Source: Paguma larvata (taxonomy: Eukaryota; Chordata; Mammalia; Carnivora; Viverridae). Taken from it: 64,000 nt of DNA. This document shows, piece by piece, positions 49,370 through 52,186 of this stretch. Made by a program: the position numbers and the translations under genes. The notes under the pieces were generated by a model. That model was not told the DNA's origin. It ran no database searches and worked only from the letters and a program-made list of their open reading frames with translations. The DNA lies in assembly GCA_030068075.1 (NCBI GenBank), contig CM057825.1, forward strand, positions 83,547,123 through 83,611,122, written 5' to 3'. Position 1 is the stretch's first letter; each line of letters begins with the position of its first letter.

Positions 49370-49578
49370 TGTGTTTCCTGGAGTGGCCGAAAGAGATCAG
49401 TTCTAACCTGCTCCGCAGGAATAACGGTCCTGCCTCCCGACACTCTTGGCGAGGTTTTGTACAGTTTGCTCCGGGAGCTGTTTCTTCGCTTCCACCTTTT
49501 TCTCCCCCACACTTCGCGGCTTCTTCATGCTTTTTCTTCTCACCATTTCTGGCCAAAACTACAAACAAGACTTCGCAG
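49370..49578 (+). other. ZEB2: ZEB2 5'-untranslated exon (start approximate)
   Basis: The 3' end is set by a strong splice donor, CAG|GTAGGT, at 49,578/49,579, followed by a T-rich intron start. The bases just before it ('CAAAACTACAAACAAGACTT', then CGCAG) are what I recall of the ZEB2 leader directly upstream of the coding exon in other mammals, which is the main reason for the call. The transcription start is not visible, so 49,370 is only a working limit. The exon contains an ATG at 49,527 that begins an upstream reading frame (MLFLLTISGQNYKQDFA) still open at the splice site. T- and C-rich DNA upstream (49,460-49,520) fits a pyrimidine-rich leader. Confidence 0.65.
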
Positions 49579-52117
49579 GTAGGTTTTTTTCCCCTTTTCT
49601 CTCTTTTTATTCCTTTTTGGTATGGTCATCCCCCAACCTCCTTTTATGATTTTTCTCCTTTTAAGTGGGGGTGTGAGTCTGAAGTGAGAAGGAGTGTCTG
49701 TGGGCAGGAATTTCAGGTGGGTTTAGCCCCTTTATGGCAAGCTTTTCCCAAGAGTGGCTTCTTCGATTTCTCTGGCACTCCGGCGCTCTCTCCTTCCTTT
49801 TCTCTTCTTTTTTCCTCCCCCAAATAATTTGCCCCGTACCTGTCCGTTCAGGTAACCAAAGGTGCCTTTTGCTTACCCAGCCTAGGAAAAGTCTTATTGA
49901 GAACTATATGGTGGAATGAAAACTCTTCAAGGGGAGAGATTCTGCTCTATTTTTGCATCGAGTGCCAATTCATTGTGTTCAGCAATTAAAACTTGGCAAA
50001 TACCTGTTAATAATTACAAAACTTGATCCATACAAACCCACCAAATTCGGGGGCAAGTCTTTCTCTTAGATATGCCAGTGCATCCTCTCCCAGCGGAGAA
50101 GGGTGTTTTCTAAGCAGAAAGTTGCCTGTTTTTGTCTGCTTAGCGAGTTTCATTTCTTTATTTTATTCTTTGTGTGTGTGTGTATGTGAAGTAACACCTC
50201 ACTTCTGTGATGATAAATAAAGAAGTGAAAGTCCTCATGGAACTTGAGTCGTTTACCAAAGTGTGTGTGGTGGGGGGGGGGGGGGTCACTACAGCTGGGA
50301 AGAAAGCTGCCGTCAGGATAGCAGAGTTTTAAAATGAAGGATAACTTTTGAAATTGCATGTTAAATGGCAAAGTAATATAGACGTGGATTTCACAGGAGA
50401 CACATGAGACACAGGAGACATACTTTGGCACTGAGAAGTCGAGAGAGATAACAGGAGTTCCCAAGAACAGTGATGAGCCCGGCTAACATGAATGTGTTTA
50501 TTGCCCACCTACTTATGTATTTTACATGCTCCCCCTATAATGATGAAGGCAAGATTACTAACTCCAGAGTTAGAAATAACAGGCAAAGATAAAGTTTACA
50601 GCACAAATGCCCTGTCTCTCCCCCCTCACACACACACATGCCCATAAAACTAGCAGCTTACTTTATTAAACATGTATTTATATGCAGTCGTGTGTAAGTC
50701 CCAGCATGAATACAGACAGGCCAGCTGTTTCATCCCAGACACTTGTGTGACCGTTTCCTTATTTCAGGATTTTTCCCAACAATTTCAAATCAATAGAACG
50801 CCAAGAAATGACAAAATGTGTCAAACATAAAAGTCACTCCCTATGCCTAGGTTAAATTCAAGGTGCTTTCTAAATCATCCACTTCCCCTTCTCTCTGCTC
50901 CCCTCCCCTCTCAGCAAATGTGTGGAAACTGATACTCACTTTCCAGGTTTTCTGCAAAGCTTCTAGCACCGGAGACAATAGGTGCGGGGCGTGGGGACTG
51001 AGTGTGCTCGGCAGAGAAAGGGTTAATGGCCCTTGTGTTACAGTTTGCATCTGTTACATCTTTTATAGCCCCTGTTTAAACTAATCCTCGAGGCACAACA
51101 TCTTCCCAACCTCCACCGACTTTCGGGATTCTCCTCCTCTCCTGCCTGCCTCCGAGGTTCCCCTTCTCCAAGTTTTGACAGTTTCAGCTGAAAAAATGCA
51201 GCGCCTCTCTCGATTTTTAGGTACAAAAGTTTCGAAGCCAGAAAGGATACGATCATTTAAGTAGAGCTTCAAAGTATTGCCGTAGCGGTTGGACTTTCTC
51301 TTTCCTTTCTTGAGGGGATATAAAAAAAAAAAAATTTCTACTGGAACTATTTAAGAGAACCAGTGTGGGGGAGCATGTGTGTGAATGAGGTGGGGGAAAA
51401 TACTTAAGTAAATATTGTCAAAGTGGCGGGGGGGGAGAGGTGGGGGGGTGGGAAGCGACAGTGTCCAAAGAGGCTTATAATTATACTTATTTCGGCGTGG
51501 AACGGGAAATCTTAATTTGGGGGCGGGGGACTGGGGGGAGGCAGAGACAGCGGCTCGATAAACTCCGAGAGGGGAGGGGAGGGGGCGCGGGGCGAGTGGG
51601 CTTCCTATAATTACTATTATCAATTTGCCCGAGTGTGCTTCATCCGGGGGCTGCTTCGCGTTGTTTGTTTGTTTGTTTCCTCTGGGGAGTGGGGTGGTGG
51701 GGGGGGTGCGAGACAAGATGAGAGCGAAAGAAAGCCTCGCCTCACCCCAAGTTCCCGAGCCGGGCTGAGGACTTTTCCGCGGAAAGGGTCCGCCTCGCCC
51801 TGAGTCAGGCAGCCTCACTGTACCGCCGTGTGTGCATTCCCTCATACGGTCAGGAGTTATGACTCATTTTGAAGATGTAATTCTTGTGTCTCTGATCCCC
51901 GCGCGGGTGCAACACACCAAACAGTAACAAACACAAAGCGCCTCGGGGCCCAGGCTGGGGGCGGGGGGCGGGGAGGGGGCCGCCGAAGTTTCGCTTTGGC
52001 GCCGGGGGGGGCGCGGATGGGTGCTCGCCGGGGCCCTGGCCCGGCTCCCCGGGGCGGCCCGCGCGCGTTTCAATGGGCGCGGGCGATGCCCACATTGTCG
52101 CTGTGTTTGGTTGCTAG
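49579..52117 (+). other. ZEB2: ZEB2 5'-UTR intron (regulated intron)
   Basis: Bounded by GTAGGT at 49,579 and TTGCTAG at 52,117. The polypyrimidine tract before the acceptor is poor ('GTCGCTGTGTTTGGTTGCTAG' region, rich in G), so removal may be inefficient. In human, published work reports an intron of similar position and size that carries an IRES and is retained when the antisense transcript covers its donor, raising ZEB2 protein. The 3' half is very G-rich on the plus strand (51,420-51,600) and enters the CpG island. E2-type boxes CAGGTG (49,714-49,719) and CAGGTA (49,849-49,854) lie near the donor. Confidence 0.65.
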
Positions 52118-52186
52118 ATCGAGCCTGCGTGCTGCCGAAGCAGGGCGCCGAGTCCATGCGAACTGCCATCTGATCCGCTCTTATCA
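52118..52186 (+). other. ZEB2: ZEB2 first coding exon, 5'-untranslated part
   Basis: Runs from the AG acceptor at 52,116-52,117 to the start codon. It contains an upstream ATG at 52,156 with a weak context. Read alone it gives a five-codon frame MRTAI and stop (52,156-52,173), ending 13 bases before the ZEB2 start. In the spliced RNA this ATG lies in frame with the ATG at 49,527, so the two merge into one longer upstream frame. The wording of this leader matches what I recall of ZEB2 cDNAs from other mammals. Confidence 0.75.

Follow-up and report, generated by a model that had tools for sequence, protein, structure and literature searches.

A splice-completed upstream open reading frame in the ZEB2 leader of Paguma larvata, a possible modest damper of translation

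The ZEB2 leader and its upstream reading frames

The window analysed here, a stretch of 64,000 nucleotides of Paguma larvata (assembly GCA_030068075.1, contig CM057825.1, positions 83,547,123 to 83,611,122 of the forward strand), carries on its plus strand the untranslated first exon of ZEB2, a 5′-UTR intron and the beginning of the ZEB2 coding sequence, together with a set of upstream open reading frames (uORFs). Positions are counted from the first base of the window, and the features are as follows.

49126..49578, plus strand: ZEB2 untranslated exon 1, its start projected from nt 1 of human NM_014795.3 by counting 453 nt back from 49578 and assuming no indel
49222..49347, plus strand: uORF A, 41 codons from the ATG at 49222, 40 from 49225 and 6 from 49327, ending at TAA 49345-49347
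49348..52186 (49348-49578 and 52118-52186 when spliced), plus strand: stop-free stretch of 100 codons in the ZEB2 phase
49527..49578, plus strand: exon-1 part of uORF B, 17 codons and one base, with a weak AUG context
49579..52117, plus strand: ZEB2 5′-UTR intron, 2539 nt, GT...AG, in which 39 ATGs begin
51500..53749, strand not assigned: CpG-rich stretch covering the 3′ end of the intron and exon 2, a candidate internal promoter
52017..52190, plus strand: frame from an intronic ATG, 57 codons (also 34 codons from the ATG at 52086), only in RNA that retains the intron or starts within it
52118..52173, plus strand: exon-2 part of uORF B, to TGA 52171-52173
52156..52173, plus strand: minimal uORF (MRTAI-stop), in spliced and retained RNA alike
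52187..52259, plus strand: ZEB2 coding start (MKQPIMADG...), up to the exon-2 donor

Taken from 49126, the spliced leader contains five upstream AUGs (uAUGs), at 49222, 49225, 49327, 49527 and 52156. The first three open uORF A, a second uORF of 41 or 40 codons that was absent from the original prediction; it shares the ZEB2 phase and is present only if the 5′ end of the transcript lies upstream of 49222. AUG contexts were graded by the −3/+4 rule, by which 49225 and 49327 are adequate and 49222, 49527, 52156 and the ZEB2 AUG itself (52187) are weak, while an in-frame AUG at 52202, five codons past the ZEB2 AUG, has a strong context. This Met6 may be an important ZEB2 start, as ZEB1 begins at the matching residue.

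In the mouse, Zeb2 is described as having three promoters and nine untranslated exons that are alternatively used (PMC8304685), so that the exon at 49126..49578 is one of several possible 5′ ends and many transcripts may be without uORF B. The latter is confined to exon-1 transcripts, and the MRTAI frame occurs in every transcript that includes 52156-52173.

Splicing completes uORF B

uORF B spans 35 codons from the ATG at 49527 to the TGA at 52171-52173, and is completed by the joining of 49527-49578 to 52118-52173 (108 nt, translation checked) across a donor at 49578/49579 (CAG/GTAGGT) and an acceptor at 52117/52118 (GTTGCTAG/ATC). Its stop lies 13 bases before the ZEB2 ATG at 52187, and the ATG at 52156 provides an inner start in the same frame. 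Without splicing, the same ATG opens a different frame that terminates after 40 codons, the last base of its stop being 49649. Gene, intron, junction, frame, stop and 13-base gap had all been proposed in the original prediction, as had the in-frame internal ATG and, upon retention of the intron, an upper frame stopping near 49649, and each was borne out base by base. With an AUG upstream of the ZEB2 AUG, a real spliced transcript and an in-frame stop, uORF B has what defines a uORF.

Published human data place the junction in cDNA. According to excerpts of PMC4505893, exon 1 of human ZEB2 (NM_014795.3) ends at nt 453, the ATG occupies nt 523-525 and exon 2 ends at nt 595, and a 337-bp product obtained with primer 383F1 (nt 383-407) was Sanger-sequenced. 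This primer maps to 49508 and covers the uAUG at 49527, and 337 bp is exactly the length expected when exons 1 and 2 are joined (213 nt of ZEB2 plus 124 nt of BCL11B, by arithmetic on the numbers in that paper). The published cDNA thus agrees with a 49578/52118 junction, which was also in the original prediction, and no differing junction was found in that source. All six of the chosen human oligonucleotides and read pieces that were mapped match the window exactly, one of them having been trimmed before a single base that differs from both the window and the other reads. We conclude that uORF B is a real sequence feature whose junction occurs in human cDNA.

Three further points concern the published record. 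A 192-bp exon 1 fusion product in PMC4505893 is said to include the CAG of BCL11B, whereas 71 + 124 nt makes 195 bp. A 23-nt ZEB2 siRNA from a 2026 paper maps inside the exon-1 part of uORF B and is uninformative on translation. Among the matches listed from the ZEB2 literature on uORFs, ribosome profiling and IRES or bicistronic tests, no title, abstract or excerpted passage describes uORF B, which may well be catalogued in supplementary profiling tables.

The layout lies close to chance expectation

As a null we used 5000 dinucleotide shuffles in which each part of the leader was shuffled separately. A non-overlapping uORF of at least 35 codons of any kind arises in 49.8% of shuffles, a junction-spanning non-overlapping uORF in 24.4%, and one that is also at least 35 codons long in 12.2%, while a junction-spanning uORF that terminates no more than 13 nt before the AUG occurs in 5.6%. 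When the real exon 2 is kept and exon 1 alone is shuffled, the junction-spanning class falls at 16.2%, or 9.7% with at least 35 codons; the uAUG count (five) is close to the shuffle mean of 4.8. No stop interrupts the ZEB2 frame in the exon-2 leader, and of the other two frames that of uORF B stays open for 17 codons and the remaining one for 23, so that a frame entering from exon 1 would survive the splice in any phase. Survival of a frame across the junction had been read as special, a view that does not hold when all three frames are open for at least 17 codons. The layout of uORF B is therefore only slightly above chance and not unusual for the ZEB2 leader; chance figures of 5.6-12% leave room for some selection.

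The start of uORF B is hydrophobic (score 2.08), as had been remarked, although the next frame (CFFFSPFLA) is nearly as hydrophobic (1.88) and the third is not (−0.34), a pattern that fits the pyrimidine-rich tract at 49480-49556 (79% C/T). A signal-peptide role for this start was considered and rejected, the hydrophobicity being in keeping with base composition.

The comparison with another species covered oligonucleotides from one mouse paper. LN209 is identical to the window over 25 of 25 bases (52155-52179), a stretch that includes ATG-MRTAI-TGA. LN249 matches at 24 of 25 bases (49448-49472), and its sole difference, GTA to GTT, is at the third base of a codon read in the ZEB2 phase, one isolated case from which nothing can be concluded. 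Eight mouse oligonucleotides or guides were mapped: three are exact, two have one or two mismatches, one has five (counted as no match) and two find nothing within six; others from that paper, exon-9 primers and two reverse complements among them, were left out of this mapping. Searches for an exon-1 ortholog gave no matches with an exact pattern in viral contigs, and none in either viral or genome contigs with a degenerate 15-residue pattern. Searching papers for the oligonucleotide k-mers returned the human sequence and the oligonucleotides of one mouse paper, and otherwise one chance match in an unrelated fish-virus paper.

Predicted effect of uORF B on ZEB2 output

On an mRNA made from the exon-1 promoter, scanning ribosomes would meet uORF A, then uORF B, then MRTAI and then ZEB2. 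Because the context of the uAUG at 49527 is weak, most ribosomes would be expected to pass uORF B. A uORF of this size that ends 13 nt before an AUG leaves little room for reinitiation there, so ribosomes that do translate uORF B would stop short of 52187 and in most cases fail to start there, although a small number might still initiate at the AUG at 52202. The outcome would be a modest, cap-dependent damping that is independent of the peptide; in this account the sequence, the junction and the counts are established, and the initiation rates, the damping itself and the absence of a peptide function are the parts that we infer.

A sense of scale comes from a linear model of scanning and reinitiation, whose parameters are assumed and which ignores structure, mRNA stability and non-AUG starts: masking the uAUG at 49527 raises arrival at the ZEB2 AUG of the spliced leader by 1.04- to 1.67-fold over 324 settings. 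The original prediction had cast uORF B as strongly inhibitory, and neither its weak AUG context nor this small masking effect bears that out. Considered together, we judge the chances about even that uORF B, one of several uORFs in this leader, truly damps ZEB2 to a modest degree by leaky scanning and is not a retention switch. It is also possible, if somewhat less so, that uORF B arose by chance and does nothing measurable, as would suit its near-chance layout, its weak context and its restriction to exon-1 transcripts. That reading has to accommodate an exact junction and a stop 13 nt upstream of the AUG, both of which are real, and the 25 mouse-identical bases that include MRTAI-TGA, although this last stretch borders on coding sequence and could have been kept for reasons unrelated to the frame.

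ZEB2 dosage matters in Mowat–Wilson syndrome, in EMT and in neural development, and a leader uORF, if truly translated, would aid the reading of ZEB2 5′-UTR variants. In mouse spleen, T1 B cells are the only ones reported to contain Zeb2 protein, although T2, MZ and FoB cells still have about 40 TPM of the mRNA (PMC10447577), which implies that post-transcriptional damping of some kind exists. The excerpted text of that study does not tie this damping to uORFs, and protein turnover or microRNAs could equally explain it.

Intron retention and the reported rise in ZEB2

The retained ZEB2 intron is said, after Beltran 2008, to carry an IRES (PMC5758807, PMC6551676, PMC7465899). A nORF has also been described as ‘a retained intron within ZEB2’ (PMC9095477), in text that does not name the intron. 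In the window, retention raises the number of uAUGs from 5 to 44 (39 added) when the 5′ end lies at 49126, and from 2 to 41 when it lies at 49350 or 49487. The retained RNA keeps the uAUG at 49527, now heading the 40-codon frame, and leaves MRTAI at 52156 unchanged; its frames from 52017 and 52086 end at the TGA at 52188-52190 and overlap the ZEB2 AUG. This stop–start overlap (ATGA, 52187-52190) is a layout that can allow reinitiation. Should retention truly raise ZEB2, 44 uAUGs would exclude ordinary scanning, and initiation inside the intron would be needed, either by the published IRES (internal entry) or from an internal transcription start.

An internal transcription start is quite possible, if a little short of an even chance. 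Capped, short-leader mRNAs starting in the CpG-rich 3′ end of the intron would escape uORFs A and B, would be read as ‘intron-containing’ and would mimic an IRES in reporters. The stretch at 51500-53749, a candidate promoter, has a GC content of 0.58-0.82 and a CpG observed/expected ratio of 0.77-1.01 in 500-base windows. A start at 52100 would meet only the uAUG at 52156, although one at 51900 would still meet four. In another gene set, promoter and/or splicing elements were reported in 85 of 90 IRES-like leaders (PMC9456764). For Zeb2 itself, however, a review enters ‘No’ under cryptic promoter, cryptic splicing and readthrough alike (PMC4879784). Moreover, in mouse fibroblasts 2′-O-methyl antisense-RNA mimics are reported to restore both intron-1 RNA and protein (PMC5758807), which fits an effect on splicing and favours true retention.

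The second candidate, in which an IRES in the retained intron bypasses the uORFs, is in our judgement rather doubtful. It is stated in the three papers that cite Beltran 2008, it would supply the internal entry that 44 upstream uAUGs demand, and the review lists the Zeb2 controls as clean. Against it stand the CpG richness of the region and the 3′ splice site within it, both of which are known to give rise to false IRES signals.

There remains the mechanism of the original prediction, in which a strongly inhibitory spliced uORF is relieved when retention breaks its frame, an IRES-independent cause of higher ZEB2. It is hardly credible, for although retention does break the frame and leave the minimal MRTAI frame, as had been foreseen, the uAUG at 49527 and MRTAI stay, 39 uAUGs are added, and the modelled ratio of retained to spliced arrival (7e-15 to 0.34, assumed parameters) reaches 1 in none of 972 settings. 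On the strength of the model and the uAUG counts we reject it with fair confidence: since a retained intron makes the leader longer and brings in 39 further uAUGs, uORF B is not the switch behind higher ZEB2. If an IRES-independent cause is sought, we regard an internal transcription start as viable and as preferable to the breaking of uORF B.

Some observations on the same region stand apart from these readings. In its excerpted text, PMC5758807 is self-inconsistent, reporting less newly made intron-1 RNA upon knockdown of the antisense transcript yet concluding that knockdown enhances intron 1 retention. In the text of PMC10048071 the distance of a Zeb2 peak, 232 bp upstream, is counted from ‘the Zeb2 TSS’, and in a figure legend the reference point for the same peak is ‘the first translated exon’. 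Between 51400 and 52186 the only E-box-like motifs are AGGTG at 51438 and CATCTG at 52167, with none near 51886, the projected position of the mouse Zeb2 peak.

Antisense ZEB2_AS1 segments

Four Rfam ZEB2_AS1 regions (RF01984-RF01987) lie on the minus strand at 50941-51068, 49840-49901, 48969-49066 and 48400-48478; they flank the sense donor (49578/49579) and uORF B, and none of the four covers either. A GT donor follows the antisense segment ending at 49840, and of the candidate antisense acceptors to its left, the most pyrimidine-rich would begin a third exon at 49303 and a weaker one would begin it at 49678. Use of the former would leave the sense donor outside the spliced antisense RNA, whereas with the latter the two would overlap. 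The best-looking exon start, 49303, thus lies to the left of the sense donor, while the literature has the antisense overlapping that splice site.

A possible N-terminal extension of ZEB2

Ahead of the ZEB2 AUG, 100 codons in its phase are free of stops in the spliced leader; this open frame begins at 49348, just after uORF A, from which it is separated solely by the TAA at 49345-49347. This in-phase frame also contains near-cognate CTG codons in adequate context at 49378 and 49549. An in-phase frame of at least 100 codons appears in 4.3% of shuffles when both parts are shuffled, in 9.5% when exon 1 alone is and in 8.1% when the 3′ part is shuffled as one, and 100 stop-free codons in any frame in 41%; the open frame is thus only mildly unusual. 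One could envisage a layered start-site device, in which the CUGs at 49378 and 49549 could give an N-extended ZEB2 only after intron removal, and uORF B and the weak AUG at 52187 would divert or pass ribosomes to the AUG at 52202. If so, splicing would pick between ZEB2 N-termini and not only between amounts, a reading that we consider very unlikely.

Comparison with known systems

Like the leaky-scanning uORFs of other vertebrate leaders, uORF B precedes the main AUG on one spliced mRNA, starts in a weak context and has an in-frame stop before that AUG. It differs from ordinary examples in being completed by a splice junction, a layout that arises in 24% of shuffles of this leader and so is no rarity. 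In uORF pairs of the ATF4/GCN4 type, a short, permissive first uORF precedes an inhibitory second uORF with a good AUG. The ZEB2 leader resembles these in having two serial uORF clusters, with 179 nt from the uORF A stop to the uORF B AUG and 121 nt from there to ZEB2, but its first uORF is long (40-41 codons), and its second starts at a weak AUG and stops short of the main start. We therefore rejected an assignment to that type.

The nearest system by position is the published intronic-IRES control of Zeb2 by Zeb2-NAT (ZEB2-AS1), which concerns the same gene and the same intron as uORF B. As described, that model needs internal entry, and uORF B adds nothing to it that retention could relieve. 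With the IRES-like leaders of PMC9456764, ZEB2 has in common a putative IRES in the end of a CpG-rich, promoter-proximal intron with a 3′ splice site; it differs from that set in that its controls are listed as clean in one review (PMC4879784). Set against these systems, uORF B is an ordinary-looking uORF and a plausible mild damper, for which the strong mechanistic claim fails.
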